Assembly: GCF_003675325.1 (NCBI RefSeq)
Contig: NZ_CP033073.1
Location: 1 to 64,000, forward strand
DNA from: Streptomyces dangxiongensis
GTDB taxonomy: Bacteria > Actinomycetota > Actinomycetes > Streptomycetales > Streptomycetaceae
DNA length: 64,000 nucleotides
Direction of reading: 5' to 3'
Below, piece after piece: positions 31,085 to 56,756 of this stretch (positions are counted from its first letter, which is position 1; each line of letters starts with the position of its first letter). The position numbers were made by a program, and so were the translations under genes. Below the pieces are notes generated by a model. It had not been told where the DNA came from. It worked only from the letters and a program-made list of their open reading frames with translations, and did not search any database.

Positions 31085-34000
31085 TCAGCGCAGCAGGTCG
31101 GCGATCTCTTCGTCGGAGAGCTGCTCCAGCTCGTCGAGTGCGGTCTCCAGGAAGGCGTCCTCGTCGGTGGCCGTGTCGGTGTCCACGCCGGCCTCCGCAC
31201 CGGCGTCCTCGCGCAGCCGGGCGGCGAGCTTCTCGACCGTCAGCCCGGTCCGCAGCAGCTCGCCGAGAGGTACCTCCGTGCCGAACGCGGACTGGATGCG
31301 GACCGCGATCCGGGCGGCCTGCAGGGAGTGGCCGCCCAGCTCGAAGAAGTCGTCGGTGACGGACACCTCGGGCAGGCCCATGACCTCGCACCACAGGGCG
31401 GCGAGGCGGCGTTCCGTCTCGTCGCGCGGGGCGACGAACTCCCGGTCCTCGCCGAAGGCGTCGAGGACCTCCAGGACGAAGCCCTCCCCCGCGCCGTCCG
31501 GGACCGTCCCGGCGGCGGCCCCGGTCCGGGCGTCGGACCAGTCGAGGACGGCAGGGAGGGACCGCTCGGGCAACCATGCCGAGAGGAAGGCACGCAGCTC
31601 ACCAGGGTCGGGCCGGTCCCCGCCCGCGGGTTCGAGGAGGGCGGTCAGCCGCGGGCCGCCGTCGGTCAGGATCTCGACGGAGGCCGAGGCGACCGCCGGA
31701 TGGGCCGCCAGAAGGGCGGCGACATGGCCGGGAAGGACCCGGTGGCCGCCGATCTCGGTCGCTTCCCCGGTCGGCCCCAGCTCCGTGACCGAGCCGTCGG
31801 CGGTGCGCCGCGCGAGCGTCCCCGTGGGGTGGGCGTCGGGGCCGGCCGTCCACAGCTCGCCGGGGACTCCGGCGGGCACGGGGCGACCGGAGGCGTCGGC
31901 GACGAACCGCCCGTGCTCCGCGCCTGCCGCACGGGCCCGTTCCTCGGCGGCGGGGGACAGCAGCGGCAGCCGGGACAGGGGCGTGTCGGGCGCGTCCGGT
32001 ACGGCGTCGACGAGGGCCGCGAAGGCGTCGAGGAGGTCCCGTACGGTCCGCTCGGCGAACAGGTCGGCGGCGTACAGGGCATGTCCGGCGAGGCTGCCGT
32101 CCGGCCGCTCGGTGAGGTGGAGGCTCAGCTCGAACTGGGCACCCGGGGAAGGCAGTTCGAAAGGTTCTGCGCTGACTCCATGGGCTTCCCAGGGCTCCAG
32201 CGGCAGGTTCTGGAGCGCGAGGCACACCCGGACGAGGGGGGCGCGCGGACCGGCCGGGGCGGTGTCGCCGGCCAGTTCCACGATCCGCTCCAGGGGCACG
32301 TCCTGGTGCGGGTGGGCGGCGAGGCAGGCGGCGCGGGCACGGGCGATGAGCTCCGCGAAACCGGGGTCGCCGGCCGCGTCGACGCGCAGCGGCAGGGTGT
32401 TGACGAAGAGCCCCACCCGGTCGGCGGTGCCGGGCCTGTGGCGGCGGGCCGCGGGAGTGCCGATGACGAGGTCCCGTTGGTCGGTCCACCGGGCGAGCAC
32501 GGCGGTCAGGCCCGCGAGCAGCACCATGTAGGGCGTGGCCCGGTGCGCGGCGGCCAGGTTCCGCAGCCGCGCCACGGCGGCGGGGGCGAGGGCGAAGGGC
32601 AGCGCGGCGCCGTTCCACAGGTGCCTGGGGAGCGGCAGATCGGCGGGGAGCGTGACGGCGCCCGCACCGGCCAGCTCCCGTGCCCAGTACGCCTCGGCGG
32701 CCGGGTCCGGATCCGGCCCGGCGGGCAGCGGGCCGGCCGTCGCCGGTCCGGGGGTGTCCGGGTCGAGGTACAGCTCGCCCAGTTCGCGCTGGAGGACGCC
32801 GAGCGACCAGCCGTCCACGGCGATGTGGTGGACGGCCATGCCGAGGTACCAGTCATCCGGTCCCGCGTGGACGAGGACCGCGCGCAGCAGAGGCCCTTCG
32901 GCCAGGTCGAAGGGTTCCCGGCCGAGCTCCTCGACGGCCCGCACGGCGCGGCGTCCACGCTCTTCGAAACCGGAGGCGTCGGTGACGTCGAGGAGCGGGA
33001 GCGGCAACGCCGCCGGAGGCCGTACGGTGGCGCGCGGTACGCCGTCGGGGCCGGGCGCGAAACCGGTGCGGAGCGCCTCGTGGCGGTCGGCGAGCGCGGT
33101 CAGGGCGGACCTCAGACGGTCCGGGTCGACCGGTCCGCTCATCCGTACCCCGCCGACGATGTGGTAGGCGCCGCCCGCTCCCATACGGTCGAGGAGCCAC
33201 ATCCACTCCTGGCCGCGGGTGACGGCCGCCGGGCCGTCGGCGGACCGTGCCCCGGAGGAGTCCGCGGCCGGGGTCGGCGCAGGGGGCGGTGTCGGTGCCG
33301 GGGTGGCCTCGGTGGTGCCGGGCCCTCCCGCGGCCAGGGCGGCGGTCGTCCTGGGGGTGGCCTCGTCCAGCAGGTCGGTGAGCGGCACCGTGACGCCGTG
33401 AGCGGTGTGAAGCGTCTCTGCGAGCCGGACCGCGCGCAACGAGTCCAGGCCGAGCGCGACCAGCGGGACGTCAGGGGACAGCCGGCCGGCCGGGAGGTCG
33501 AGTGCGGCGGCGATCGAGGCCACGGCGGCGGGATCGCCCCACTCCTCCTCGGCGGCGGGGGCGGCCGGTCCGGTGCTCCGGCCGCCGCGGGCGACCGGAG
33601 CCAGGGCGTCGGTGAGCCAGAGCTCGCGGGTGGCGCCGCGCCGGATCTTGCCACTGGTGGTGCGGGGGACGGCGCCGGGGCGGACGAGGACGACCTCGTG
33701 CGGGGTCACGCCGTGGGCGGTGCCGACGGCGAGGGCCACGGCCGCCAGGACCTCCTGGGTCCGGTCGGCGTCGAAGCCCCGGACGACCTCGTGGACCAGG
33801 ACGACGTGCTCCTCACCGGCGCGCTCCACGGAGAAGGCGGCGGACCGGGTCGGCCGGATCAGCGGGTGAGCGGCCTCGGCTGTGGCCTCCAGGTCCTGCG
33901 GATAGTGGTTGCGGCCCCGGACGATCATCAGGTCCTTGACCCGGCCGGTGACGAAGAGCTCACCGTCGTGGAGGAAGCCGAGGTCGCCGGTGCGCAGGAA

Positions 34001-35320
34001 CTCCCGGCCGGGGTGGGTGTCGAGGCGGGCCCGGAAGGTCTGCTCGGTCTGCTCGGGCTGCCGCCAGTACCCGGCGGTGACGGTGGGGCCGGAGACCCAG
34101 AGCTCGCCCACCCGGCCGGGCGGGCAGGGCGCGCCGACGGCGGTGTCGACCACGACCACGAGGTCCTCGCTCTGCGGGGTCCCGCAGCCGGTGAGCCGGA
34201 CGGTGGAACGCGCGACCGTGGAGCCCCCGAAGTCTCCGGGGGTCTCCCGTGCCTCACCCGATTGAAGGGCGTCGCGGTCGAGTTCGAGGACGCGGGGCGT
34301 TCCGCGGGAGGGCGTTCCGCCGGTGACGAAGAGGGTGGTCTCCGCCATGCCGTAGCAGGGGTGGAAGGCGGAGGGCCGAAAGCCGCTCGGGGCGAATGCC
34401 CCGGCGAAGGTCTCCAGGGTGGCGGGCCGCACCGGCTCCGCGCCGGACAGGGCGTGCTGCCAGGCCGAGAGGTCAAGGAGGGCCCGTTCCTCCTCGGTGC
34501 TGCGCCGCACGCATTCGAGGTAGGCGAAGTCGGGAGCGGCGGAGACGGTGGCGCGGTGCCGGCTCATCGCCTCCAGCCAGCGCAGCGGCCGGCGCAGAAA
34601 AGCCATGGGGGCCATGAGGGTGCAGGGGAAGCCCGCGTACAGCGGCTGGAGGATGCCGCCGATCAGGCCCATGTCATGGTAGGGCGGCAGCCAGCTGACG
34701 CCCTCGGATCCCTCGTGGGTGCCCAGGGCGCGACTGATGGCCGCGGAGTTGTGCACGAGGTTGTCGTGCCGGACCATCACGCCTTTGGGGGTGCCGGTCG
34801 AGCCGGAGGTGTACTGGAGGAAGGCCAGGTCCTCGGGGGCTGGACCGTCCCAGTCGGCCTCGGCGGGGGCCCGCGGGGCCTCCTCGACGGCGAGCCAGTC
34901 GAGGGAGCCGTCGGCGAAGGCGGGGTACTGGGCGCGCAGCGAGGCGAGCCCGGCCCCGTCACCGAGGACGAGCGTGGCGCCCGCGTCCCGGGCGGTCGTC
35001 AGGACGCCGTCCGCGCCATGCTTCCCGGCGGGCAGGTACTGCGGGACGGCGACGGCCCCCGCGTACAGGCAGCCGAGGAAGCCGGTCACATAGTCGGCGC
35101 CGGGCGGGAAGAGGAGCAGAACGCGTTCCCCGCGCATGCCCCGGTCGAGCAGGGCGGTGGCCACCGCCCGGGCGCGCCGGTCGAGCTCGGCGTAGTCGAC
35201 GGAGCTTTCCTCCTCGCCGTCCTCCAGGAACCTCAGCGCGGTGCGGTGCGGAGTGCTCCGCGCACGGTCCCGGAGGACGTCGACGAGGGTCCGGCCGGTG
35301 GGGTCGGTCTGTGTCTGCAC
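31085..35320 (-). CDS. FAAL-ACP-C-(A relic)-PCP lipopeptide starter synthetase
   Basis: A 1,411-residue starter protein. Residues 1-590 are a fatty acyl-AMP ligase (FLQYTSGSTGTPKGV, WLPPYHDMGLIGG, CYGMAETTLFVTGG and a FAAL-specific insertion). A carrier domain follows (LVALGLDSLRAVRL). The condensation domain has HHIAVDGWS. Next come about 120 residues resembling only the C-terminal subdomain of an A domain (VPGELWTAG, TEIGGHRVLPGHV) with no ATP-binding core. A PCP (DDFFELGGHSLQAARI) and an acidic tail end the protein. GTG at 35320 is chosen over a longer Pro/Arg-rich extension. The product should begin with a fatty acid on an amino acid supplied by the free A domain. Confidence 0.92.
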   Translation of the reverse strand: MQTQTDPTGRTLVDVLRDRARSTPHRTALRFLEDGEEESSVDYAELDRRARAVATALLDRGMRGERVLLLFPPGADYVTGFLGCLYAGAVAVPQYLPAGKHGADGVLTTARDAGATLVLGDGAGLASLRAQYPAFADGSLDWLAVEEAPRAPAEADWDGPAPEDLAFLQYTSGSTGTPKGVMVRHDNLVHNSAAISRALGTHEGSEGVSWLPPYHDMGLIGGILQPLYAGFPCTLMAPMAFLRRPLRWLEAMSRHRATVSAAPDFAYLECVRRSTEEERALLDLSAWQHALSGAEPVRPATLETFAGAFAPSGFRPSAFHPCYGMAETTLFVTGGTPSRGTPRVLELDRDALQSGEARETPGDFGGSTVARSTVRLTGCGTPQSEDLVVVVDTAVGAPCPPGRVGELWVSGPTVTAGYWRQPEQTEQTFRARLDTHPGREFLRTGDLGFLHDGELFVTGRVKDLMIVRGRNHYPQDLEATAEAAHPLIRPTRSAAFSVERAGEEHVVLVHEVVRGFDADRTQEVLAAVALAVGTAHGVTPHEVVLVRPGAVPRTTSGKIRRGATRELWLTDALAPVARGGRSTGPAAPAAEEEWGDPAAVASIAAALDLPAGRLSPDVPLVALGLDSLRAVRLAETLHTAHGVTVPLTDLLDEATPRTTAALAAGGPGTTEATPAPTPPPAPTPAADSSGARSADGPAAVTRGQEWMWLLDRMGAGGAYHIVGGVRMSGPVDPDRLRSALTALADRHEALRTGFAPGPDGVPRATVRPPAALPLPLLDVTDASGFEERGRRAVRAVEELGREPFDLAEGPLLRAVLVHAGPDDWYLGMAVHHIAVDGWSLGVLQRELGELYLDPDTPGPATAGPLPAGPDPDPAAEAYWARELAGAGAVTLPADLPLPRHLWNGAALPFALAPAAVARLRNLAAAHRATPYMVLLAGLTAVLARWTDQRDLVIGTPAARRHRPGTADRVGLFVNTLPLRVDAAGDPGFAELIARARAACLAAHPHQDVPLERIVELAGDTAPAGPRAPLVRVCLALQNLPLEPWEAHGVSAEPFELPSPGAQFELSLHLTERPDGSLAGHALYAADLFAERTVRDLLDAFAALVDAVPDAPDTPLSRLPLLSPAAEERARAAGAEHGRFVADASGRPVPAGVPGELWTAGPDAHPTGTLARRTADGSVTELGPTGEATEIGGHRVLPGHVAALLAAHPAVASASVEILTDGGPRLTALLEPAGGDRPDPGELRAFLSAWLPERSLPAVLDWSDARTGAAAGTVPDGAGEGFVLEVLDAFGEDREFVAPRDETERRLAALWCEVMGLPEVSVTDDFFELGGHSLQAARIAVRIQSAFGTEVPLGELLRTGLTVEKLAARLREDAGAEAGVDTDTATDEDAFLETALDELEQLSDEEIADLLR

Positions 35321-35605
35321 GGTCTCACTTCCAAAGGGGCCGGTCCGGGGCCGGGCACCGACGGGGCGGGAAACTTCGAGCCGGGCGGGTGGACCCGGAG
35401 GGGCCGGCGGGTGCCGCCGGGGCGGGGTACGGCCGCCTCGGCGAACGGCTCGGGGGACACCTCCGCGAACAGCGGAAGCTCGGGCAGCGGGCACAACAGC
35501 TCCTGTCCCGGGTGGGACGTCCACCCTGACTCGCCCTGTTGCATGGCGCGGTCGGGGAGCGCCCGGGTGCCCGCGGAGCCGGAGCCGGAGGCGGGCCCGG
35601 GGTGG

Positions 35606-36352
35606 TCATCCGAGGGTTCCGACGGTCCGGAGCGGGTCCGCGCCCGGGGCCGTAACGGCGGCGGGCCGGGCGCAGGCCGCGACGAAGGCGGCGAAGAGCT
35701 CGTCGTCGCCCGAGACCTCGGGGTGCCACTGCACGCCGAGGACGAACCGCTTGGCGGGGTCCTCGGCGGCCTCGACGACGCCGTCGTCGCTGCGGCCGGT
35801 GACGGTCAGCAGGCCCGGGTCGGCGACGGCCTGGTGGTGATGGGAGTTGGTGACGGCCCGCGGTCCGTACACGGCGGCGGCCCGGCTGCGCTCGGTGAAG
35901 CGGACCTCGTGGCGTCCGAACTCGCCCTCGCGCGGGCAGTGACCGGTGTGCCCGACGACATCGGGCAGGTGCTGATGGAGCGTGCCCCCGTGGACGAGGG
36001 CGAGGAGCTGCAGGCCGCGGCAGACGCCGAGGACCGGCAGGTCCAGGTCGAGCGCGGTGCGCAGCAGCAGGAGTTCACCGTGGTCCCGGTCGGGGCGGGG
36101 GGTGTCGGAGGCGGGGTGCGGTTCCTGCCCGTAGTGGGCGGGGTCGATGTCCGCGCCGCCGGTCAGGAGCAGTCCGTCGAGGCGGTGCAGGACGTCGGCG
36201 TCGAGGTCGTCCGGCGGCAGGACCACCGGGCGGCCACCGTTGTCGGCGATCCCGCGCACATAGGACTGCTGGACGACGGTGGCGTCGGTGTCCCAGATGT
36301 TCCAGCGGGCCCGGTCCCGGTAGGCGGCGATGCCGATGACGGGGCGGCTCAT
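35606..36352 (-). CDS. Class I glutamine amidotransferase-like gamma-glutamyl hydrolase (peptidase C26)
   Basis: A 248-residue PuuD-like enzyme. The nucleophile Cys is in VLGVCRGLQLL, and the His and Glu in VQWHPEVSGDD; LLLTGGADIDP is the oxyanion-side motif. PuuD and relatives cleave a gamma-glutamyl-amine bond, removing a glutamyl group put on by a glutamine-synthetase-like ligase. Such a ligase lies at 53436-54800 in the same cluster. It is the last gene of the operon with SHMT-like, HypF, HypE and isochorismatase-like proteins. Role in unmasking an amine is inferred. Confidence 0.9.
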   Translation of the reverse strand: MSRPVIGIAAYRDRARWNIWDTDATVVQQSYVRGIADNGGRPVVLPPDDLDADVLHRLDGLLLTGGADIDPAHYGQEPHPASDTPRPDRDHGELLLLRTALDLDLPVLGVCRGLQLLALVHGGTLHQHLPDVVGHTGHCPREGEFGRHEVRFTERSRAAAVYGPRAVTNSHHHQAVADPGLLTVTGRSDDGVVEAAEDPAKRFVLGVQWHPEVSGDDELFAAFVAACARPAAVTAPGADPLRTVGTLG

Positions 36353-36383: not shown

Positions 36384-37697
36384 TCAGGACGCGTGGGCGC
36401 CCAGGGCGCGACCGGCCAGGGCGAGGGAACGATCGAGGAGGGCCGCGGCCTCGGGCAGCGCGGCACCGAGCGGGGTGCGGGCCCCCCGCAGGGCGGCGAC
36501 CCGGTCGGCGAGGCCGGCGGCGGGCCGTTCGTCGCGGACGGCGGCGGCGAAGACGTCGGCGAGCTCCGGCAGGTCCTCCTCGGTGAGGCCCTGGTACGCG
36601 GCTTCATTGAGGCCGATGCGCATGCCCTGGCCGGTGAAGCCGGGCAGCCCGGCCATGAAGTTGACCTTGAGTCCGGCGGCGTAGAGCCGATCGCTGGCGA
36701 GGCCGGGGGCGATGCCGTCCCGCTCGGTGTCGAGCCAGAGCTGGTGTCCGGCGGTGTAGCCGCGGTCGGCGGCGCAGACGGTGAGGCCGCGCCCGGCGAG
36801 GAGTCCGGCGAAGGAACGGGTGTGCCCGACGACGGCCCGCGCGTAGGCGGGGCCGAACTCCTGGAACTCCAGGAGGGCCATGCCGAGGCTGAGGGTGGCG
36901 CCGAAGTGGTGGCTGCTGACCAGGTAGTCCTGGGTCTCCCGGATGCGCTTTTCGATGTCGGCGTCGCGGGTGAGGATCAGCGCCTTCTGCGGGCCGGGGA
37001 AGGTTTTGTGGGTGGAGCCGCCGAAACTGTCGGCGCCCGCGTCCAGGGGGTTGGGGAAGACTCCGGCGAGGACGAGGCCCATCCAGTGGCTGGCGTCGAC
37101 GTGTACGAGGGTCTCGGGGGACGCCTCGCGGACGACGCGGACCAGGGCGGCCACGTCGATGGGGAAGAGGCAGTGGGACTGGTCGACGTAGACGAGTGCG
37201 GGCCGCACCCGGCGTAGCAGCTCGGCGGCGTGGTCGAGGTCGAGCGAGTGCGGGTCGGGGCCGCGGAGGAACTCGACCCGCTGGCCGAGCCGCTGGGCGA
37301 CGCTGGGGGTGGCGTAGTGGCCGCCGTTACCGGGGCCGACGGTGACGACGGTGGAGCCGGGGTCGCCGCCGAGGGTGGCCAGGGCGAGGGTCATCGCGTT
37401 GAGGCCGCTGAGCGGGCGCACGGACACGTAGTCGGCCCTGCCGAGGCGTTCCAGGAGCGGGATGGCGACGTCGGTCTCGATGTCGCGCAGGCTCTGGGCG
37501 CCGCGGAAGTGCCAGCGGTCGGGGTCGTCGGTCTCGTTGAAGAAGTAGCGGTGGTACGGGTCCAGGAGCATGGGCAGCTTGGCCAGTCCGGACATGGCGT
37601 TCTCGGACGGCACGAGGCTCAGCGTCCGTGCGGCCGTCTCCTCGTGCTCCGCGAGTAGCTGGACAACGTCGCTGAGGGTGATCTTAGCTGGGGCCAT
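36384..37697 (-). CDS. SHMT-like PLP enzyme (aldolase/transaldolase type)
   Basis: A 437-residue fold-type I PLP enzyme of the serine hydroxymethyltransferase family. The Schiff-base lysine is in FGGSTHKTFPGPQ, the cofactor Asp region is LVHVDASHWMG and the N-terminal substrate Glu region is LSLVPSENAMS. It is compatible with aldol addition of glycine to an aldehyde, or with transaldolase chemistry like that of fluorothreonine and related enzymes. The ATG has AAAGGAACGCCG before it and lies 11 bases after hypF. The position between HypF and the C26 hydrolase argues for a precursor role, probably making an unusual beta-hydroxy amino acid, rather than housekeeping one-carbon metabolism. Confidence 0.85.
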   Translation of the reverse strand: MAPAKITLSDVVQLLAEHEETAARTLSLVPSENAMSGLAKLPMLLDPYHRYFFNETDDPDRWHFRGAQSLRDIETDVAIPLLERLGRADYVSVRPLSGLNAMTLALATLGGDPGSTVVTVGPGNGGHYATPSVAQRLGQRVEFLRGPDPHSLDLDHAAELLRRVRPALVYVDQSHCLFPIDVAALVRVVREASPETLVHVDASHWMGLVLAGVFPNPLDAGADSFGGSTHKTFPGPQKALILTRDADIEKRIRETQDYLVSSHHFGATLSLGMALLEFQEFGPAYARAVVGHTRSFAGLLAGRGLTVCAADRGYTAGHQLWLDTERDGIAPGLASDRLYAAGLKVNFMAGLPGFTGQGMRIGLNEAAYQGLTEEDLPELADVFAAAVRDERPAAGLADRVAALRGARTPLGAALPEAAALLDRSLALAGRALGAHAS

Positions 37698-37708
37698 CGG
37701 CGTTCCTT

Positions 37709-40174
37709 TCATCGTTCGTGCGCGGCGGGCTGCGCGGGTACCGTCCCGGAGGACCGGCCGGAGCGGGCGGCCGCGACCATCACCTGGCCCAGGGCGATGC
37801 CGCCGTCGTTGGTGGGGACCAGGCGGTGGGCGTGTGCGGACAGGCCGGCGGCGCGCAGTTCGAGCAGCGAGTTGACGAGCAGGAACTCGTTGAGGAAGAC
37901 GCCCCCGGAGAGGACGACCCGGTCGGTGCCGGCGGCCCGGCACTCCTCGGTGCCCCGGTCGCGGACGAGTCCGACGACGGCCGAGTGGAAGCGGCGGCTG
38001 ATCTCGGCGGTGCCGAGCCCAGCGGTGAGGTCGGCGGCGATCGCCCGGATCACCGGCCGGAAGTTGATCTCGGTGGTGTGCTCGCCGGGGGCGGAGTCGG
38101 CGGCGGGTGCGAAGGCGAAGGCGTACGGCTCCGCGAGAGCGAGGTCGCGGCCGAGGAGTCCTTCGAGTTCGATGGGGCCCTGGGCCTCGTACTCCGCGCG
38201 TGAGCAGACGCCGAGGAGGGCGGCGACGCCGTCGAAGAGGCGGCCCATGCTGGAAGCCGGGGGCGCGTTCACGCCGCGGCGGGCCATCGTGGCGTACACG
38301 TGCCGTTCCTGCTCGGTGAGTTCACCGAGGACGGGGAAGGCGGCGAGGACCGCGTCCGCCTCGTGTCCGAAGGCGTCGAGGGCCAGGGCGTAGGCCGTGC
38401 GGATCGGTTCGTGGACGGCCTTGTCGCCGCCGAGCAGCGGGATGTGGCGCAGCCGGGCGGTGCGGCGGACCTCGGTGTAGTCGCCGAGCAGGAACTCGCC
38501 GCCCCAGATGGTGCCGTCGGTGCCGTAGCCGGCGCCGTCGAAGACGACGCCGAGGGTGGTGCCCTCGATCCGGTTCTCCGCCATGCAGGAGGCCATGTGG
38601 GCGTGGTGGTGCTGCACCGCGACCACCTCGGCACCCTCCTCCGCCTCGGCGAGGATGTGCGAGCGGAAGGAGGGGTGCAGGTCGCAGGCGATGAAGCGGG
38701 GTTTCAAGCCGTACAGTTCGGCGAGGTGGACGGCGGTCTGCCGGTGCGAGGCGAAGGTCTCGTCGTTCTTCAGGTCACCGATGTGCTGGCTGACGTACAC
38801 CTCGTCGCCGGAGCCGAGGGCGATCGTCGTCTTCAGCTCGGCGCCGTAGGCCAGAACCGGCTCGGGGAGCGTGTCGACCGTCACCGGGTACGGGGCGTAG
38901 CCGCGCGAGCGGCGCAGGAAACTGATGACGGGCTCGTCGAAGCCCGGGTGGTCGGTGCAGCGGACCACGGAGTCGTCCACCCGTATGTGGATGTCCCGGT
39001 CGTGGTGGAGAACCAGGTCGGCCACCTCGAAGAGCTGGGCGAGCGCGTCCTCGTTGCGGTGGACGATCGGATAGCCGGAGACGTTGCCGCTGGTCATCAC
39101 GAGGACGTCGAGTGCGGGGTGGTCGAGCAGCAGGTGGTGCAGCGGCGCCGAGGGCAGCATGACGCCGATGTTCGGGTTGCGCGGGGCGACGGCCTCGGGC
39201 AGGGCGCCGGGCGCCTTGCGCAGCAGGACGATCGGCCGGGCCGGGGACTGGAGCAGTTCGGCTTCGGCCGGGCCGTGGGCGGCGATCCGGCCGACCGTGC
39301 CGAGATCCTCGGCCATCACCGCGAAGGGCTTGGAGTCGCGCTTCTTGCGGCGCCGCAGCCGGGCCACGGCCCCGGCGTCGCGGGCGTCGACGGCCAGGTG
39401 AAAACCGCCGACGCTCTTGACGGCGACGATCCGGCCGGCGGCGAGCGCCTCGACGGCCGCGGTCATGGCCGCGTCCGCCTCGGCGAGGACCCCGTCCGGA
39501 GGACCGGACAGGGTGACCTGGGGCCCGCAGGCCGGACAGGCGTTGGGCTGCGCGTGGTACCGGCGGTCGCCCAGGTCCTCGTACTCACGCCGGCACTCCT
39601 CGCACATGACGAAGGAGGTCATGGTGGTCTGCGCCCGGTCGTATGGCAGGTCCCGGATGATCGAGTACCGGGGACCGCAGTGGGTGCAGTTGGCGAACGG
39701 GTAGCGGTGGCGGCGGTCGCCCGGGGCGCGCACCTCGGCCAGGCAGTCCGGGCAGACGTGCGAGTCCGGGGGGACGATCGTCCGGGCGTCGCCGCCCCGG
39801 ACGCTCTCCCGGATGGTGAAGTCCGCGGGCGCGTCGGCGCCCGCGGACGTCTCCTCGACCCGTACCTCGTTCACCCGGGCGAGCAGGGGCGCCCGGTCCC
39901 GCAGGGCACGGGCGAAGGCGGTCAGAGGCTCGGGGGTCCCGTACACCTCGGTGAGGACACCGAGGGAGTCGTTGAGCACCCATCCGGTGAGTCCCAGCTC
40001 GTGGGCGAGCGTGTGGACGAAGGGGCGGTAGCCGACCCCCTGCACGACGCCCTCGACCCTGATGAGCCACCGCTCGGACGGGCCCGGCCCCGTGCCGCCG
40101 GCGACGCGGGTGTCACCGATCGCTCCGGTCCCGACGGGCCCGCCGATCTCCCTGGCGGAGTTCTCCGACCGCAT
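37709..40174 (-). CDS. hypF: Carbamoyltransferase HypF
   Basis: An 821-residue full-length HypF. The acylphosphatase domain has VQGVGYRPFVHTLA. Two zinc fingers follow, CPDC-x18-CTHC and CEEC-x18-CPAC, then a YrdC domain (KSVGGFHLAVDA, KRDSKPFAVM) and a Kae1-like domain with the metal site VQHHHAHMAS, VFDGAGYGTDG and VLSGGVFLNE. HypF splits carbamoyl phosphate, makes carbamoyl-AMP and transfers the carbamoyl group to the C-terminal Cys of HypE. All domains look intact. The ATG is 18 bases after the HypE stop. No hydrogenase structural or other maturation genes are present in the window. Its use in an NRPS cluster is unusual. Confidence 0.93.
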   Translation of the reverse strand: MRSENSAREIGGPVGTGAIGDTRVAGGTGPGPSERWLIRVEGVVQGVGYRPFVHTLAHELGLTGWVLNDSLGVLTEVYGTPEPLTAFARALRDRAPLLARVNEVRVEETSAGADAPADFTIRESVRGGDARTIVPPDSHVCPDCLAEVRAPGDRRHRYPFANCTHCGPRYSIIRDLPYDRAQTTMTSFVMCEECRREYEDLGDRRYHAQPNACPACGPQVTLSGPPDGVLAEADAAMTAAVEALAAGRIVAVKSVGGFHLAVDARDAGAVARLRRRKKRDSKPFAVMAEDLGTVGRIAAHGPAEAELLQSPARPIVLLRKAPGALPEAVAPRNPNIGVMLPSAPLHHLLLDHPALDVLVMTSGNVSGYPIVHRNEDALAQLFEVADLVLHHDRDIHIRVDDSVVRCTDHPGFDEPVISFLRRSRGYAPYPVTVDTLPEPVLAYGAELKTTIALGSGDEVYVSQHIGDLKNDETFASHRQTAVHLAELYGLKPRFIACDLHPSFRSHILAEAEEGAEVVAVQHHHAHMASCMAENRIEGTTLGVVFDGAGYGTDGTIWGGEFLLGDYTEVRRTARLRHIPLLGGDKAVHEPIRTAYALALDAFGHEADAVLAAFPVLGELTEQERHVYATMARRGVNAPPASSMGRLFDGVAALLGVCSRAEYEAQGPIELEGLLGRDLALAEPYAFAFAPAADSAPGEHTTEINFRPVIRAIAADLTAGLGTAEISRRFHSAVVGLVRDRGTEECRAAGTDRVVLSGGVFLNEFLLVNSLLELRAAGLSAHAHRLVPTNDGGIALGQVMVAAARSGRSSGTVPAQPAAHER

Positions 40175-40191
40175 CCCTGCTCCCCGTCCTC

Positions 40192-41223
40192 TCAGCAAAG
40201 GCGCGGGAGTTCCGCGCCCTTGAGTTCCTCGATCTCGCTGATCCGGCCGTCCGTGCCGACCATCTCGACGGCCTTCTCGGCCCGCTCGGTGATCTCGCCG
40301 ATCAGCACGGCCCGGCGCCCGTACTCGTGCGCGTGCAAGGTCTCCAGCACGGCGTCGACGGCGTCCGGGGCCACGAACAGCGCGAGGCAGCCCTCGTTGG
40401 CGGCGTTGATGGGGTCGATGCCGAGCATGTCGGCGGCCATCCGCGTCTCGTGGTCGATGGGCAGCGCGCTCTCCTCGATACGCACCGCCCGCCCGAGCGC
40501 CGACGAGTACTCGTGGAGGACGGCGGAGAGGCCGCCGCGGGTCACGTCCCGCATGGAGCGGACCGCACCGGCCGGGACCTTGTCGCGGAGGCTGTCGATC
40601 ATGCCGTTGAGCGGGGCGCAGTCGCTGACCACGCGCTGCTCGAAGCCGAGACCCTCGCGGACCGAGAGCAGGTGGATGGTGTGGTTGCCGATCGGGCCAC
40701 TCAGGATGATCCGGTCGCCGACCTCCACGTCGGTCATCCGCTTCGGCTCCTCGTGGAAGACGCCGATGCCGGTGGTGTTGAGGAAGATGCCGTCGGCCTC
40801 GCCCTCACCGACGACCTTGGTGTCGCCGGCGACGATCTTCACGCCGGCCTCGCGGGCGGTGTCGCGGATCGAGACCAGGGCGCGGTGGAGCTGTGCGATG
40901 GGCAGCCCGGTCTCCAGGATCATGGCCAGGGTCAGGTAGAGCGGCTGGGCACCGACGACCGCGAGGTCGTTGACGGTGCCGCAGACCGCGATCTTGCCGA
41001 TGTCGCCGTTGCCGAAGAACGGCGGGTCGACGACAAAGGAGTCAGTGGTCATGGCGATCCTGCCGACCGAGATCGGCAGCACCGCGCTGTCCTCCATCTC
41101 GCCGATGTAGACGTCGCCCAGGACGCCCACGACGAACTCGACGAGTTCCCGGCTGAGCCGGGCCCCGGTCCCATGGTCGAGGACGATGTGCTGATCCAGA
41201 AGGGATTCCGTGCCGGTGCTCAA
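40192..41223 (-). CDS. hypE: Carbamoyl dehydratase HypE
   Basis: A 343-residue AIR-synthase/PurM-fold protein. It has MTTDSFVVDPPFFGNGDIG, NDLAVVGAQPLYLTLA and MRDVTRGGLSAVLHEY, and the decisive C-terminus ELPRLC, where the last Cys accepts the carbamoyl group. HypE then dehydrates the thiocarboxamide with ATP to a protein-bound thiocyanate, the source of CN in [NiFe]-hydrogenase. The TTG start is chosen from GGGAG six bases upstream; no better ATG exists. It directly precedes hypF. As HypC and HypD are missing, the CN group must go to some other acceptor here, or the pair serves a hydrogenase encoded elsewhere. Confidence 0.93.
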   Translation of the reverse strand: MSTGTESLLDQHIVLDHGTGARLSRELVEFVVGVLGDVYIGEMEDSAVLPISVGRIAMTTDSFVVDPPFFGNGDIGKIAVCGTVNDLAVVGAQPLYLTLAMILETGLPIAQLHRALVSIRDTAREAGVKIVAGDTKVVGEGEADGIFLNTTGIGVFHEEPKRMTDVEVGDRIILSGPIGNHTIHLLSVREGLGFEQRVVSDCAPLNGMIDSLRDKVPAGAVRSMRDVTRGGLSAVLHEYSSALGRAVRIEESALPIDHETRMAADMLGIDPINAANEGCLALFVAPDAVDAVLETLHAHEYGRRAVLIGEITERAEKAVEMVGTDGRISEIEELKGAELPRLC

Positions 41224-41297
41224 CCAAGCTCCCAAAATCGGTGCGTACGTACGGTGCGGGGCTGCCGTGCGGCAGCGCGGCCGAGGCCGCGGGGCCG

Positions 41298-41882
41298 TCA
41301 GGGGACGAGGAACTCCTTGCGCGGCAGGTCCTTGTCGGAGTCGAGGAGGGCGATGATCTCCTCGGAGGTGGCGATGGTGGCGCAGTAGCCGTCCATCCAC
41401 TCCAGGGCACGGGTCTTGTCCTGCTCGCGGGCGGAGACGACGCAGTCGCTCGGCACCCAGACCTTGTAGCCGCGGAAGAAGGCGTCGGCGGCGGTGGTCT
41501 GGACGCAGATCTGGCTCTGCATGCCCGTGATGATCACGGTCTCCACGCCGAGGGCCTGGAGGCGCTCGTGCAGGTCGGTCTCGTAGAAGCCGCTGTCCTT
41601 GTTCTTCTCCAGGACGATGTCGCCCTCGTCGAGGAAGGCCGGGACGATCGCGGCGCCCTCGGTGCCCTGCTGCACCGGAAGCCAGCCGTCGTAGCGCTCG
41701 GCGATCGGGTCGTCCGGCAGGTTGATCAGCTGCAGGTGGACGACGTGGTGGCCGCGCTCGCGCATCGCCTTCAGGAACCCCGAGAAGGCCGGCGTCGCCG
41801 CGTCGACGGCGTCGATGCGCTCCTGGTTCTTGTTGATCAGGTCGGCCTGGAGGTCGTTGGTGAGGACGGCGATCTTACTCAT
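41298..41882 (-). CDS. Isochorismatase-family cysteine hydrolase
   Basis: A 194-residue cysteine hydrolase with the family triad: Asp in VLTNDLQADL, Lys in VLEKNKDSGFY and Cys in GMQSQICVQTTAADAF. Members cleave amides and carbamoyl groups (nicotinamidase, N-carbamoylsarcosine amidase, ureidoacrylate hydrolase) as well as isochorismate. The ATG has CGAGGAG just upstream. It heads the operon that continues with hypE and hypF, with a cluster palindrome about 90 bp before it. In this context action on a carbamoyl, urea, amide or nitrile-derived group is likelier than on isochorismate, but the substrate is unknown. Confidence 0.9.
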   Translation of the reverse strand: MSKIAVLTNDLQADLINKNQERIDAVDAATPAFSGFLKAMRERGHHVVHLQLINLPDDPIAERYDGWLPVQQGTEGAAIVPAFLDEGDIVLEKNKDSGFYETDLHERLQALGVETVIITGMQSQICVQTTAADAFFRGYKVWVPSDCVVSAREQDKTRALEWMDGYCATIATSEEIIALLDSDKDLPRKEFLVP

Positions 41883-42010: not shown

Positions 42011-45000
42011 TCAGCGGAGGGCTGGGGCGGTGGGGTCCGCGGCCATCGCCGCGATCACCTCGTGGAACTCGGCGGCGAGTTCCTCGATCCGATCGGGCGA
42101 GAACAGGTCGTCGCGGCAGATCCACACGGTGTGTGGGCGGGTGCCGCCGTGCCGCAGCCGGACGCTCAGCGGCCGGTAGGCGTACGGGAAGGGCGGAGTG
42201 AGGGGCTCCACGCGCAGCCCGCCGCCCTCGAGCCCGGCGCGCACCTCCTCCTCGGTCGTGAACTGCACCCGGAAGAGGCGCCCGAGCAGCTCCGGGTCCG
42301 GGAGGTGGGGCTCCAGGAGGTGGGGCGGCAGCTCGTGCCGGGCGAAGCCCTCACGGGTGGCCTCCTCGACCCGGTCCAGGACTCCGGCATAGGTGGGATC
42401 CCCCGACAGGTCGACGCGGATGACGACGTCGTTGGAGAAGTCGGCCACGAGGTCCTGGACGTCGGTGGTGTCGCGGTACGAGACGGGGGTGCGCAGACAG
42501 ATGTCGCGCTGGCCGGACCGGCGGGCGAGGAGCAGCTGGAAGGCGGCGAGACCCACGGTGTTGAGGGTGGTGCGGCGCCGGGCCGTCAGCCGGGACAGAG
42601 CTTCGAAGACCGGCTCGGGCATGGCGATGTCCACGGCCCGGCCGAGCTGCCGGGGGGCGTCTGCCGGGACGCGGTCGGAGGGCAGGACGACGGGTTCGGC
42701 CCCGGCCAGCCGGTCGGTCCAGTACGCGGTGAGCTCATCGCCCCGCGGCCCGGCGACCAGCTCGCGGTGGCGCCGGGCGAACTCGGCGAATCGGGTGGGG
42801 AGTCCGGGCAGCCTGTCGCCCTCGCCGAGGTAGAGCGCCCACAGGTCGCGAACGAGGATCTCCAGGGTGCGCCCGTCGCCGACCATGTGGTGGAGGACGA
42901 CGAGGACCGCGTGGTCGTCGGGGCCGAAGCGCAGCAGCCGCATCCGTACGGGCGGAGCCGACGCCAGGTCGAAGGGGCGGTCGACCTCCGCGCGGACGAT
43001 GTCCGGGTACGCGTGGGGTTCGGCGTCCGCGGTGTCCAGGGGCAGGCGTACGGAGGGGGCGACGATCTGGGTGAGGTGTCCGTCCTCGATCCGGTAGGTG
43101 CTGCGGAGGGTCTCGTGCCGGTCCGCGAGCGCGTCCCACGCGGCGCGCAGCCGTTCGGTGTCGAGCGGTCCGTACAGCCGGACACCGGCGGTGAGCAGGG
43201 GGGCGGTCCGCTCGGGGGAGAGCGAGTCCCACAGGCCCTCCTGCGCGAGGGAGGCCCGGAACCGCAGCTCCCCTCCTTCCGGCGCGGAGGAGGCCCCGGC
43301 GGCCTCTGCGGCCCCGGCGGTCTCTGCGGCTCCGGCCATCCCGGCGAGGAGGTTCTCCTCGTGGCGGACACGTCCGGGGGACGGGGCGGTGCCCGGCGGC
43401 TCCTCGGGGGTGCCGGGGCCGGCGAGCCGCCGGTAGACGGTGGCGGAGACGGCGGCCACCGTGAAGTCGCGGTACAGATCGTCCCGTACCGAGATCTCCA
43501 CGGGGAAGGCGTCCCGCAGCCGCGCCGCGAGCCGGACCGCGGTGAGGGACTGACCGCCCAGGTCGAAGAAGTTGTCGTGGACACCGACCTCCTCGCTCCC
43601 GTCGAGCAGCTCGGCCCAGATCCGGGCCACCTCCCGCTCGATCGGGGTGCGGGGCGGGACGAACGGCGCGGGAAGCTCGTCCTCCGGCGGGGCGGCGCCC
43701 GCCTCGGGGAGGACCGGGGTCTCGGGGAACGCGGGAAGCTCGTCCTCCGGTGCGACGGCCGCCAGCAGCTCCGGCAACGGCAGCTCCGGCAGCCGCGCCG
43801 CCCGGGCGTACAGCTCGCCGAGGTGGCGGGCGAAACGCTCGGCGGCGGCCTGGCCGAACAGCGCGGTGTCGTACTCCAGGACCGCCTCGTACCCGCCGCC
43901 CACCGGCCGGACGTCGAGCACCAGACCGGCCTTCGCGGTCGTCACCGGCGACGGCAGCAGCTCCATGGTGAGCCCCGCGACCCGCCAGCTCGCCGGACGG
44001 GGCGACTGGAGCACGAACATCGCGCCGGACGCGAGGCGTTCGGCGCCCGCCCCGCCGTGCCGCCGCAGCTCCTCCACGGCCCGCTCGAACGGCAACTCCC
44101 GCCGGTCGAAGTCGTCCAGGCAGCCCGCCCGGACCCGGTCGAGGAGCGCGGAGAAGCCGGGGGCGCCGGACAGGTCGGTGCGCAGCAGCAACGGATTGAC
44201 GAAGTAGCCGACGAGCCTTTCCAGTTCGGGCCGGTCACGGCCCTCGGTGGGAGAGACGACGGTGATGTCGTCCTGCCGGAACCAGCGGGAGAGCAGCGCC
44301 TGGTACCCCGCGAGGAGCACCATGAAGGCGGTCGCTCCTCGATGGTACGCCAGCTTCTCCAGAGCGCGGGCAGTGACGGCAGGCAGCGTGAAGTGGTGTG
44401 CGGCGCCCCGAGGTCCGCCGTCCGGGACTTGTCCCGTCGCGGGCGTGAACGGCAGCGGGACCACGCCCGCGAGCCGCTTTGCCCAGTAGCCGGTCAGGGA
44501 CTCCAGGTGGTCGCCGCTGAGCCGGTCGCGCTGCCAGACGGCGAAGTCGGCGTACTGGATGGGGAGTTCGTCGTACTCCGGCTCGACTCCGGCGACCCTG
44601 GCCGCGTAGCCGAAGGTGAGTTCCTCCAGGAGGACGGCCGAGGAGGTGGCGTCGGTGACGATGTGGTGGACAGCGAGGACCGCGAGGTGCTCCTGGGGCG
44701 CGAGGCGCAGCAGGTGGAAGCGGAGCAGCGGCCCCTCGGCGAGGTCGAACGGACGGTGGAGCAGTTCGTGGACGGCGTCCGGTATAGCCTCCACGGCGAG
44801 TTCACGCACGGGAACGTCGAGGGTCAGCCGGGGCAGCACGACCTGTGTCAGGGTGTCGCCCCTCAGCTCGAAGACGGTCCGCAGGGACTCGTGCCGGTCG
44901 ACGACCGCGTCGAGGGCCCCGGTCAGGGCGGGCACGTCGAGCGCGCCGGTGAGCCGGAAGACCGCAGTGACGTGCTGGGCCGAGTCCTCACGGGCCAGCC

Positions 45001-45064
45001 GGCTCCGCAGCCACAGACTGTGCTGCCCCAGTGACGCGGGCCCCGCCCACGGTTCGTCAGCCAT
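42011..45064 (-). CDS. NRPS C-PCP-C protein without adenylation domain
   Basis: A 1,017-residue protein. The first condensation domain has HHIVTDATS, with the catalytic second His and Asp. A carrier follows (NFFDLGGQSLTAVR, about residue 500), then an acidic/Ala-rich linker and a second condensation domain with HHMVGDGRT. No A domain is present, so the carrier must be loaded by a separate enzyme. The terminal C domain has no downstream carrier in the same protein. It may pass the chain to another protein, or release it by attack of an amine or alcohol. The gene is divergent from the 2OG oxygenase at 45353 and shares that promoter region. Confidence 0.9.
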   Translation of the reverse strand: MADEPWAGPASLGQHSLWLRSRLAREDSAQHVTAVFRLTGALDVPALTGALDAVVDRHESLRTVFELRGDTLTQVVLPRLTLDVPVRELAVEAIPDAVHELLHRPFDLAEGPLLRFHLLRLAPQEHLAVLAVHHIVTDATSSAVLLEELTFGYAARVAGVEPEYDELPIQYADFAVWQRDRLSGDHLESLTGYWAKRLAGVVPLPFTPATGQVPDGGPRGAAHHFTLPAVTARALEKLAYHRGATAFMVLLAGYQALLSRWFRQDDITVVSPTEGRDRPELERLVGYFVNPLLLRTDLSGAPGFSALLDRVRAGCLDDFDRRELPFERAVEELRRHGGAGAERLASGAMFVLQSPRPASWRVAGLTMELLPSPVTTAKAGLVLDVRPVGGGYEAVLEYDTALFGQAAAERFARHLGELYARAARLPELPLPELLAAVAPEDELPAFPETPVLPEAGAAPPEDELPAPFVPPRTPIEREVARIWAELLDGSEEVGVHDNFFDLGGQSLTAVRLAARLRDAFPVEISVRDDLYRDFTVAAVSATVYRRLAGPGTPEEPPGTAPSPGRVRHEENLLAGMAGAAETAGAAEAAGASSAPEGGELRFRASLAQEGLWDSLSPERTAPLLTAGVRLYGPLDTERLRAAWDALADRHETLRSTYRIEDGHLTQIVAPSVRLPLDTADAEPHAYPDIVRAEVDRPFDLASAPPVRMRLLRFGPDDHAVLVVLHHMVGDGRTLEILVRDLWALYLGEGDRLPGLPTRFAEFARRHRELVAGPRGDELTAYWTDRLAGAEPVVLPSDRVPADAPRQLGRAVDIAMPEPVFEALSRLTARRRTTLNTVGLAAFQLLLARRSGQRDICLRTPVSYRDTTDVQDLVADFSNDVVIRVDLSGDPTYAGVLDRVEEATREGFARHELPPHLLEPHLPDPELLGRLFRVQFTTEEEVRAGLEGGGLRVEPLTPPFPYAYRPLSVRLRHGGTRPHTVWICRDDLFSPDRIEELAAEFHEVIAAMAADPTAPALR

Positions 45065-45352: not shown

Positions 45353-46096
45353 ATGCACACCATGTCGGAGAAGACCGCAGCGCCCGATCCGTCGGCGGCC
45401 ACCGCGTCGGCGGAGCTGGCGGGGCAGGGCTGGCACCTGCAGAGCGCGGACACCGTGTCGCGGCTGCTGGGCGTCGGCGACGCCGAATGGGCGGCATACG
45501 CGGACCACTGGGACGACCTCGTCCTCGACACGTACATGAAAGACGGCGGCACCTACCGCAACCGGCGCTACGGGCACTTCCGGCTCGATGCCGACGGGCT
45601 GACCCGGCTGGCGCACGGCCCCTACCGCCAGGAGTCGGCGGTCAACCCGCTCAACGGCGGGATCGACCGGCACTTCGAGCCGCTGACCGACGGCTTCCTC
45701 GCCAACCCCATCACCGACGGTGTCGTGCGGATGCTCGGCGAGATCTTCTCCGCCGCCGAGGGCATCGGCGCCTGGGACGTGAAGCTGCACCCCTTCCGCA
45801 TCGTCACCAGTGCCGCCCAGGTCGGCAAGCCCGCCCCGCAGGGCCGGCACCGGGACGGCTCCACCTTCGTGACCTCGCTGCTCGTGCGCCGGAACAACGT
45901 GGAAGGCGGCGAGAGCTCTCTGTACAGCGACGACGACGAGTTGCTGTTGCGCTCGACGCTCTCCCGCCCCGGCGACCAGCTACTCGTGGACGACCGGCGG
46001 CTGCTGCACGACGTCACCGCGCTGCGGGCCGTCGACCCCGCTCTGCCGGCGTACCGGGACGTGCTGATCGTCGACTTCGACCGCCTGCCCGCCTGA
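45353..46096 (+). CDS. 2OG-Fe dioxygenase family protein (IDO-like amino acid hydroxylase)
   Basis: A 247-residue enzyme of the 2OG-Fe dioxygenase family typified by isoleucine 4-hydroxylase, distinct in fold details from the TauD-like enzymes upstream. The metal motif is HRDG in QGRHRDGSTFVTSLLV with the distal His in RLLHDVTALR and a 2OG Arg soon after. Such enzymes act on free aliphatic amino acids. The ATG at 45353 is close to GAGGGG; ATG at 45362 gives better spacing and is equally possible. It begins the plus-strand unit that continues to the second C-A-PCP module. Confidence 0.85.
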   Translation: MHTMSEKTAAPDPSAATASAELAGQGWHLQSADTVSRLLGVGDAEWAAYADHWDDLVLDTYMKDGGTYRNRRYGHFRLDADGLTRLAHGPYRQESAVNPLNGGIDRHFEPLTDGFLANPITDGVVRMLGEIFSAAEGIGAWDVKLHPFRIVTSAAQVGKPAPQGRHRDGSTFVTSLLVRRNNVEGGESSLYSDDDELLLRSTLSRPGDQLLVDDRRLLHDVTALRAVDPALPAYRDVLIVDFDRLPA

Positions 46097-49100: not shown

Positions 49101-49631
49101 GCCGCCTACCTCACCCTCGTCCCCGGTACGGCGGACGCCCCGGCGCCCGAGGCGCTGCGCCGCCACCTCGCCGGCCGGCTGCCGACGCCGATGCTGCCGT
49201 CCTCTTTCACGGTCCTGGACGACCTCCCGCGCAACGCCAACGGCAAGACCGATCTGCTCAGGCTCCCCGCCCCCGCCGAGGCTGCCTCACGCCGGGCCGA
49301 CCGGGTCTCGCCGAGCGGCCCGCTGGAGACGGTGCTCGCCGGCATCTGGGCGCAGACTCTCGGGCAGGCCGAACTCGGTGTCGAGGACGACTTCTTCGAC
49401 CTCGGCGGACACTCCCTGATGGCCACGCTCGTGGTCTCCCAGGTCCGCGAGCTGTTCCGCGTCGAGTTGCCCCTGCACTTCTTCATCCAGGCGCCCACGA
49501 TCGCCGCGCTCGCGCGGATGGTGCGCGCCCAGGGCATCGAGGCGGGGGTCGACACCGACCGCGTCGCCGAACTCGTGCTCCAGGTCCAGCGGATGTCCTC
49601 CGGCGAGGTCACCGCCCAGTTGCGGGACTGA
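46200..49631 (+). CDS. NRPS module C-A-PCP
   Basis: A 1,143-residue intact module. The condensation domain has HHIVADG at 186-192. The adenylation domain (about 520-1030) shows LYTSGSTGRPKG, YNCYGPTEA, YRTGDLARW and the Lys of NANGKTD. The carrier has DDFFDLGGHSLMATL and a short tail. The A4 motif is unusual: SDPALWE instead of FDxSxWE. Hand-read specificity residues are DPWDLGCLD-K, which I cannot match to a known amino acid. The substrate may be the non-standard residue made by the HypE/HypF or oxygenase genes. The gene is followed directly by the exporter (one base between stop and ATG). Confidence 0.93.
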   Translation: MNRRDELRRVLDDMTPAQRAKLARHLAQRREQRGETALPILPRTDGAGRFPASPGQERIYFLHELDPDARAYIMPVVVRLRGRLDETALAEALRAVVRRHEALRTGFEADPALGMVAQVVRPADGAAIELLTGTAREDELPRLMEELVRPRFGLAKDLLLRAALWRTEGTPGETPDGAWTLGLVLHHIVADGWSLGVLVKDLAAAYTALVTDGTGAALPSGPGAQYADFAAWQREWLAGDGPAPQRAYWRKALRGAPVLSVPGDRVPPAQRTFDGSSVPLPLPAPLEAALTRVGREEQATLFMVLLAAYAYVLHRWSGEDDVVVGTPVAGRGLPETETMFGFFVNTLALRVDLAGAGTFRELVRRVRDVCLEGFAHQDLPFEQVVQELDGDRKGGRSNLVNALLTLTNVPLGPLRLPGVEVVVPEQPRSGTDLDLSLEFTPVDGGGLEGWLIYSTDLFERSTAERIAGAVRQVLDTVAEAPAGLPLHAVPVMTDATREELLHRTSGRATAPYPGRPLADWFSDRVDEAPDRTALVVDAAGADPAACETLGYAELDARANRLAHWLRRSGLATEDRIGIYLDRGTELVTAILGVLKAGGVCVPLDPDHPEDRLAGLVDDCRPRFVLTDTERAGRFHALPGNGGPDVVALNALGTALDAEPATRPEVPIAPMGAAYMLYTSGSTGRPKGVVLTHHGLGNRLRGMCDALAFTPDDTVLHKSTINSDPALWELLVPLFSGARVVLALPGRNTEPAYVHDVLARHRVTACDFVPSLLHPVLARPGFAEAAADLRVLLSGGEELPPDLATRILTLVPGVELYNCYGPTEASLDVAVQRVTLPVTGPVPIGAPVTGAELYVLDERGRLQPPGVPGELLIGGVQISRGYLGMPGRTAASHVPHPFRAGERLYRTGDLARWRSDGALDYLGRIDRQVKIRGYRVEPGEVETALRAHPAVDQAAVAARPRPEGGHVLAAYLTLVPGTADAPAPEALRRHLAGRLPTPMLPSSFTVLDDLPRNANGKTDLLRLPAPAEAASRRADRVSPSGPLETVLAGIWAQTLGQAELGVEDDFFDLGGHSLMATLVVSQVRELFRVELPLHFFIQAPTIAALARMVRAQGIEAGVDTDRVAELVLQVQRMSSGEVTAQLRD

Positions 49632-56649: not shown

Positions 56650-56756
56650 CCCCGAGCCGTCGCCGGACCACTGCCCCAGGCCCCCGCACCACCGCCCCGC
56701 CCGCACCGCCGGAGGCATCCGGCACCCGAACCACCCGTGCCGTCTGGAGTCACCCT

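Follow-up and report, generated by a model that had tools for sequence, protein, structure and literature searches.

What are HypE and HypF, described as hydrogenase maturation proteins, doing in a nonribosomal peptide synthetase (NRPS) gene cluster where no hydrogenase is detected? This question is raised by the opening 64 kb of a Streptomyces dangxiongensis contig of 8.09 Mb ("the window" below means this whole stretch of 64,000 nucleotides). A first-pass annotation had proposed that the pair moves a cyano or carbamoyl group onto an amino acid precursor. Our analysis favors, with a probability of roughly 0.55, a dedicated hydrogenase-independent cyanyl generator in which a cysteine hydrolase, here called IsoC, replaces HypC-HypD (HypCD) and the cyano group is passed to a small molecule. 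The central genes are as follows.

41298 to 41882, minus strand: IsoC, an isochorismatase-fold cysteine hydrolase and the third member of a triad with HypE and HypF (PF00857, 122 bits).
40192 to 41223, minus strand: HypE, 343 amino acids, ending in ELPRLC (TIGR02124, 412.2 bits; PDB 3vti_C, 255 bits).
37709 to 40174, minus strand: HypF, about 821 amino acids (TIGR00143, 731.9 bits; Pfam domains; PDB 3vth, 565 bits).
36384 to 37712, minus strand: pyridoxal phosphate (PLP) enzyme resembling serine hydroxymethyltransferase (SHMT), with an alternative start at 37697 (PF00464).
35606 to 36352, minus strand: peptidase C26 of the gamma-glutamyl hydrolase type, after the SHMT-like gene (PF07722, 200 bits).

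Both Hyp proteins are intact and full length. HypF exceeds the cut-off of the TIGR00143 equivalog model (731.9 versus 466.1 bits) and lies above the Pfam cut-offs for all five domains: acylphosphatase, zinc finger (in two stretches), YrdC and both Kae1-like subdomains. HypE likewise passes the TIGR02124 equivalog model (412.2 versus 251.6 bits) and has its terminal cysteine in ELPRLC. The HypF open reading frame (ORF) spans 37709 to 40198 on the minus strand and probably starts at an ATG at 40174. A likely TTG start at 41223 gives a HypE of 343 residues, which is also the length of the identical protein on an 8,085,191-base contig, and a sequence resembling a ribosome-binding site precedes each chosen start. 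With these starts, 74 bases separate IsoC from HypE and 17 bases separate HypE from HypF, and these short gaps suggest one operon. The minus-strand run has eight genes: an NRPS with condensation (C) and thiolation (T) domains in the order C-T-C, IsoC, HypE, HypF, the SHMT-like enzyme, the C26 protein, an NRPS with an acyl-loading domain of the fatty acyl-AMP ligase (FAAL) type in the order FAAL-T-C-T, and a stand-alone adenylation (A) domain. HypE and HypF are its third and fourth members. The annotated picture of a full-length HypF and a PRLC-ending HypE in one apparent operon with a cysteine hydrolase, an SHMT-like enzyme and a C26 hydrolase, with NRPS genes on both sides, therefore stands.

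Searches of the organism's own genome gave no match to HypA, HypC, HypD or the hydrogenase large subunit within the window (HypB was not among the queries), so that the absence of hydrogenase genes claimed earlier was borne out for these proteins. A single hydrogenase/Hyp locus, 7.5 Mb from the window, encodes both hydrogenase subunits, large and small, together with HypF, HypC, HypD, HypE and HypA. It holds the only HypD, HypC and HypA of the genome (contig C2, 7.51 Mb), with large-subunit matches at 7.516-7.518 Mb, and its HypE and HypF are 41-42% and 45% identical, respectively, to the window proteins. The hydrogenase is thus served by a HypE and a HypF encoded beside it, and the pair in the window is an additional set, not the only one available to it. 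A complete hydrogenase set elsewhere that lacked hypE and hypF had been named as evidence against the idea, and this is not what the genome holds.

The arrangement in the window recurs. The SHMT-like protein was found at 70% identity or more in six of 391 Streptomycetales genomes (the window's own included), and HypF adjoins it in all six. A named genome collection scanned with an 18-row SHMT-like alignment yielded 34 loci, and HypE and HypF were present at 11 of them (L042-L051 and L056) but at none of the remaining 23 within the stretch examined. These 11, together with L034, L139 and the window, make up 14 NRPS-type loci, here called type A. IsoC, HypE, HypF and the SHMT-like gene are present in 14 of 14, the C26 gene in 13 and a match to the FAAL query at 45% identity or more in 10, where absences are weak evidence given that most of the stretches are about 20 kb. 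The triad proteins of these loci are at least 63% identical to those of the window, and some of the loci are close kin (for example, L044 and L139). Because the same gene order recurs in 14 loci, the HypE/HypF block in the window is not there by chance.

Several of the organisms that carry this block appear to lack a hydrogenase. Among the 11 named genomes, six (Streptomyces albicerus, S. fructofermentans, S. fragilis, Streptomyces ISL-36, Nocardiopsis ansamitocini and Actinophytocola xinjiangensis) have a single HypE, that of the block, and no HypD; some assemblies are drafts, but a completeness of 100% is given for the counterparts of two of them, S. fructofermentans and S. fragilis. No match to the hydrogenase large subunit was obtained in four of these six. 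S. fragilis has a partial match under the cut-off, and A. xinjiangensis has a partial match over it (35.4 versus 25.8 bits) that covers profile positions 1-67 of 508. The latter may be read as a relative of complex I, because similar short matches accompany the true subunit in other genomes. The finding that 6 of 11 block genomes lack another HypE, HypD and a full large subunit agrees with the proposal that the pair has been diverted from hydrogenase to small-molecule clusters, and we regard the separation of the triad from hydrogenase as nearly certain. The remaining five genomes have a second HypE, HypD and the large subunit.

The triad extends beyond type A. Window HypE matched in 228 of the 391 genomes at an E value of 1e-50, in identity tiers of 79-100% (six genomes, with the SHMT-like gene), 69-71% (six), 55-56% (three) and then 48% or less. 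The two middle tiers comprise nine loci, each of which carries IsoC, HypE and HypF and shows no SHMT-like gene in the 14-20 kb examined. In a set of 72,556 plasmid records, IsoC at 44.7% identity or more and a full-length HypE at 55% or more single out the same 10 records. An eleventh record with a triad-type HypE (NBC_01591) has a partial one and is not among the 25 IsoC matches listed. The triad was present in seven of the seven plasmid records examined, from Streptomyces NBC_01361, Paraburkholderia sabiae, P. phymatum, S. clavuligerus, Citrobacter, Salmonella and Rhizobium.

These sets give 29 triad loci (14 of type A, nine and six plasmid ones, with L139 counted among the 14), all selected by SHMT-like or HypE similarity, independently of IsoC. 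IsoC is present in 29 of the 29 loci with a triad-type HypE and in none of seven comparison HypE loci (L003, L133 and L140-L144, where L140 is a cysteine-less HypE-like gene and L133 and the others have HypD). In 24 loci the IsoC gene immediately precedes HypE, in the same orientation and no more than about 200 bases from it; it is about 1 kb away and divergent in four and about 12 kb away in one (L050). The cysteine hydrolase noted earlier beside HypE and HypF is thus a constant third partner, a role that had been missed. A tblastn search found HypC in 0/29 triad loci, HypD in one (P. sabiae) and hydrogenase subunits in one (P. phymatum, where the triad borders on a hydrogenase operon that includes a HypF, HypB and HypA of its own); record annotation adds HypC-family genes beside both of these triads. 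Overall, the triad does not regularly keep the company of HypC, HypD and hydrogenase, nearby or in the genome, that marks [NiFe]-hydrogenase maturation: such partners lie near two of the 29 loci, and 6 of the 11 named genomes showed no HypD and no full large subunit.

The neighbors of the triad vary with cluster type. Four loci (L124, L125, L128 and L129) share a class III aminotransferase of the diaminobutyrate type, a GNAT protein and a weakly haem-oxygenase-like protein (below the cut-off), and three of them (L124, L128 and L129) additionally have a major facilitator superfamily (MFS) transporter and an M20-type amidohydrolase. The P. sabiae and P. phymatum loci encode an aminotransferase and a GNAT protein 36-37% and 47-50% identical to the Streptomyces ones, and in P. 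sabiae a stretch of 36 residues matches the haem-oxygenase-like gene as well. Two loci (L126 and L127) carry an ATP-grasp amino acid ligase. Another three (L130-L132) have an arginase-like enzyme and a DUF3865-like protein, which is below the Pfam cut-off and takes its name from the S. clavuligerus record; L131 also has a nitroreductase. In this S. clavuligerus-type cluster, a 486-amino-acid protein is encoded downstream of HypF (L130, 12915-14369; L131, 5574-7031; L132, 6191-7648; L137, 15744-16853), with no Pfam match (L130 and L131) and no NCBIfam match (L131). Plasmids of Citrobacter freundii (L135, 10326-17233) and Salmonella diarizonae (L136, 4047-11101) carry a compact set in which LysR, a HAD phosphatase and an MFS transporter accompany IsoC, HypE and HypF; this may be the system in its minimal form. 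A megablast search with the Citrobacter operon against E. coli genomes, a mode that needs roughly 85% identity, gave no match. The triad therefore spans several cluster types and two phyla, Actinomycetota and Pseudomonadota. The unit nevertheless looks rare, because only 2 of 396 genomes in a phylum-wide sample (the window's own and G008) contain IsoC at an E value of 1e-38, and this sample brought no further cluster context.

IsoC scores above the PF00857 cut-off and carries Asp10, Lys93 and Cys126, which places it among isochorismatase-fold cysteine hydrolases. These three residues and Cys167 are invariant in all 29 triads, and we take Asp-Lys-Cys to be the catalytic residues of this fold, in which the cysteine attacks amide-type carbons. 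Its nearest solved chain is 3eef, related to N-carbamoylsarcosine amidase (74.5 bits). IsoC resembles the N-carbamoylsarcosine amidase and biuret hydrolase family in its fold and its Asp-Lys-Cys positions, but it differs in its linkage to HypE and HypF and in falling under the cut-offs of all four NCBIfam models listed (biuret hydrolase, 56.6 versus 370 bits). A further difference is Cys167 (window positions 41382-41384), a second invariant cysteine that is a glycine at the aligned site of 3eef.

The tail of HypE separates the triad from the hydrogenase systems. In the literature the PRIC motif, also given as PR(I/V)C, is said to be shared by every HypE and to be indispensable for handing cyanide to HypCD (PMC12130793 and PMC4506123), and it is proposed to thread into HypD (PMC12130793). 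The last four residues are PRLC in 29/29 triad rows versus PRIC in 17/17 hydrogenase-type rows, and no triad HypE thus has the PR(I/V)C tail of hydrogenase maturation. Positions 59-60 are typically Gly-Asn in triad HypEs and Pro-Gly in hydrogenase types, and position 325 is Ala in 28 of 29 triads and Glu or Asp in hydrogenase types (numbering of the 331-residue matched part). Across both groups 57 positions are invariant, the final cysteine among them. A HypE tree was built from 49 rows, of which 29 come from triads, 11 are labelled hydrogenase and nine are of unknown context. In it, a branch with 100/100 support and a length of 0.89 sets apart 17 rows, namely the 11 hydrogenase rows and six of unknown context. 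These six end in PRIC, and the only one checked (L091, in its wider stretch L133) has HypD. Because the root of the tree is unknown, the rows on the triad side are not necessarily monophyletic. Cluster types are intermixed in the tree, with type A requiring three changes.

Three long-branch HypE-like rows without a terminal cysteine (L140, L092 and L104) also fall on the triad side, with unsure placement. L140 (11917-12936) lies in a polyketide-type cluster beside a crotonyl-CoA carboxylase/reductase. Could HypE be used in such cases without serving as a cyano carrier?

For the triad itself, the conserved domains and residues suggest a mechanism that begins as in hydrogenase maturation. HypF would convert carbamoyl phosphate and ATP to carbamoyl-AMP and carbamoylate the last cysteine of HypE, and HypE would then use ATP to dehydrate this group to HypE-S-CN. 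We infer these steps, known for the hydrogenase proteins, from the domains and residues retained here; HypE-S-CN formation is the default expectation because the HypF/HypE domains and the 57 HypE positions are retained. (Lys134 and Glu272 of T. kodakarensis HypE, presumably the dehydration residues, were not found in print and were not used.) IsoC, in place of HypC-HypD, would receive or position the PRLC tail, and its Cys126 would perhaps take the cyano group by thiol-cyano exchange and hand it to a small-molecule nucleophile. The product would be a cyanamide or nitrile, maybe elaborated further. In the window, the cyano group would go to a building block of the NRPS product, probably an acylated one, or to one of its residues while bound to a carrier. 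For other clusters, the presence of an aminotransferase, an ATP-grasp ligase and a GNAT hints that the acceptors are amino acids. Transfer of a cyano rather than a carbamoyl group is probable, and the assignment of IsoC as the cyano receiver that replaces HypCD is more tentative. The broader proposal, that IsoC-HypE-HypF is a general mobile module in which an IsoC-type transferase hands protein-bound thiocyanate to organic nucleophiles to give nitriles or cyanamides, has in our judgment slightly less than an even chance of being correct. Such a route would be unlike any nitrile pathway known to us (aldoxime, AetD and ToyM types).

Several points weigh against a triad dedicated to IsoC-mediated cyano transfer. 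The triad has no known metabolite, the role of IsoC is based solely on gene linkage and invariant residues, and conservation of HypE residues is no proof of dehydration. The Citrobacter and Salmonella minimal operons have no obvious acceptor-making enzyme and would fit a freely released small product equally well, and an ABC transporter with its substrate-binding protein is encoded in the operon of Rhizobium, which makes uptake, not export, conceivable. Furthermore, the two Paraburkholderia loci adjoin hydrogenase genes, annotated HypC-family genes included, and cross-talk is possible in the 5 of 11 named block genomes and the window's own genome, because these also have a hydrogenase.

Release of a free product is one of the alternatives to be weighed. 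IsoC might use ammonia, water or a thiol to free cyanamide, cyanate, thiocyanate or cyanide from HypE-S-CN, which the clusters would then use or export. The gene content of the two enterobacterial operons and the fold that IsoC shares with carbamoylsarcosine amidase and biuret hydrolase are in keeping with this, but the amino-acid-modifying enzymes around many triads suggest a specific acceptor and there is no sign of release; we consider it unlikely. Still less probable is that HypE acts as a carbamoyl carrier and IsoC as a carbamoyl transferase that yields ureas or carbamates. The invariance of 57 HypE positions across triad and hydrogenase types speaks against this, as does the existence of carbamoyltransferases that do not need HypE, although the best PDB match of IsoC is a relative of N-carbamoylsarcosine amidase and many antibiotics bear carbamoyl groups (PMC6022934 for the carbamoyltransferases and the antibiotics). 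The suggestion that the window pair is a spare maturation pair still feeding the HypC-HypD of the genome's hydrogenase draws on the hydrogenase in the window's own genome and on the two Paraburkholderia triads beside hydrogenase genes. It was rejected, since block genomes (6 of 11) exist without HypD and without a full hydrogenase; with the deep split in the tree, the PRLC tail and the constant IsoC also against it, this explanation is already largely refuted and very improbable.

A further alternative holds that IsoC is not the receiver: HypE would pass the cyano group directly to a nucleophile attached to a carrier or to PLP (on the SHMT-like enzyme of this cluster, for instance), and IsoC would hydrolyze a later cyano or carbamoyl intermediate. 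Relatives of the SHMT-like fold make glycine carbanions, and the gene adjoins HypF in 14/14 type A loci; however, these loci were found via the SHMT-like protein, so its constancy there is partly selection. In 15 of the 29 triads no SHMT-like gene was found within the stretch examined, relatives at 62-64% identity occur in two genomes without a triad-type HypE (Nonomuraea sediminis and Herbidospora), and the constant partner is IsoC, not SHMT. Direct transfer is accordingly doubtful, to about the same degree as the carbamoyl reading. The participation of the SHMT-like enzyme in cyano chemistry, part of the earlier proposal, loses ground for the same reasons, and its candidacy as an obligatory cyanation partner is weakened. 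By its distribution, the SHMT-like/C26 pair appears to be a second module, separable from the triad. We left the enzyme out of the cyanation step because this module continues without a triad-type HypE.

A profile of 18 SHMT-like relatives matches 4uqv (SHMT; 188 bits) and 7k34 (labelled "threonine aldolase," which we take to be a transaldolase; 151 bits), and the S-T-H-K columns are invariant in all 18 rows. One relative (50% identity; L061, 9069-12597) is flanked by genes for a TauD oxygenase and a pyrimidine phosphorylase, an arrangement that resembles that of the transaldolases of nucleoside antibiotics. Another, in Clostridium cibarium (L057, 8042-11290), has as neighbors a BadF-type ATPase and a protein resembling dehydratase activases.

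Compared with known systems, the triad is like the [NiFe]-hydrogenase pair in its full-length, all-domain HypF, its HypE above the family cut-off with a terminal cysteine and its adjacent genes. It is unlike that pair in the scarcity of HypC or HypD nearby (no more than 2 of 29 loci), PRLC instead of PRIC, a constant cysteine hydrolase, mostly biosynthetic clusters as its setting and a 100/100 separating branch. Antibiotic clusters also contain O-carbamoyltransferases, presumably those of the TobZ/GdmN type. As described in PMC6022934, these share YrdC-like and Kae1-like domains with HypF, but they carbamoylate hydroxyls, have the two domains in reverse order and are without the acylphosphatase and zinc-finger domains. 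The literature covered (mostly open-access papers, preprints excluded) contains no HypE/HypF natural-product pathway or compound beyond one remark in the decRiPPter study, which reports a Streptomyces cluster with hypE and hypF homologues, an ATP-grasp ligase and no other hyp genes, and suggests a novel function (PMC7794033). That cluster is taken there as a candidate for a ribosomally synthesized and post-translationally modified peptide, and the passage in question names no cysteine hydrolase, NRPS context or mechanism, unlike the account given here (PMC7794033). This passage is the one forerunner found, and a pathway published elsewhere may have been missed.

HypE and HypF persist where no hydrogenase is detected, their delivery tail is altered and they have gained a constant partner. 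These observations suggest that cyanide carried on a protein may serve bacteria in the assembly of natural products. If the cyano group does reach organic molecules, this would be a new enzymatic route from carbamoyl phosphate to C-N triple bonds. A PRLC-ending HypE next to IsoC would then be a genome-mining handle for undiscovered nitrile or cyanamide compounds, and the triad would be a natural experiment on what cyanide delivery needs of the HypE tail.

Other features of the window, including a divergent plus-strand set (oxygenase, C-A-T NRPS and MFS transporter), are as follows.

29448 to 31007, minus strand: stand-alone A domain, code DLWNVGMVH (PF00501).
31085 to 35494, minus strand: NRPS with FAAL-type acyl loading, T, C, A-domain remnant and T (PF00501, PF23024, PF00668, two PF00550; T motifs).
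42011 to 45064, minus strand: C-T-C NRPS without an A domain, at the head of the apparent operon (PF00668 in two stretches, PF00550, motifs).
45353 to 46096, plus strand: 2-oxoglutarate-Fe(II) dioxygenase of the divergent set (PF10014).
46200 to 49631, plus strand: C-A-T NRPS.
49633 to 50904, plus strand: MFS transporter.
53436 to 54800, minus strand: glutamine-synthetase-like ligase, start taken from the inspected translation (PF00120, 321 bits).
56412 to 59624, plus strand: ORF with A-T domains, code DFWNIGMVH; its start is a candidate.

An acyl-loading domain, which we take to be of the FAAL type, together with C, A, T and thioesterase (TE) domains, places the window among NRPS lipopeptide clusters. 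For the lipopeptide product proposed earlier, the FAAL-type loading enzyme is favorable evidence and nothing further supports it. The NRPS at 31085-35494 has an apparent A-domain remnant between its C and T domains, and the neighboring stand-alone A domain may load it in trans. The code of this A domain and that of the A-T ORF are both presumably threonine-like.

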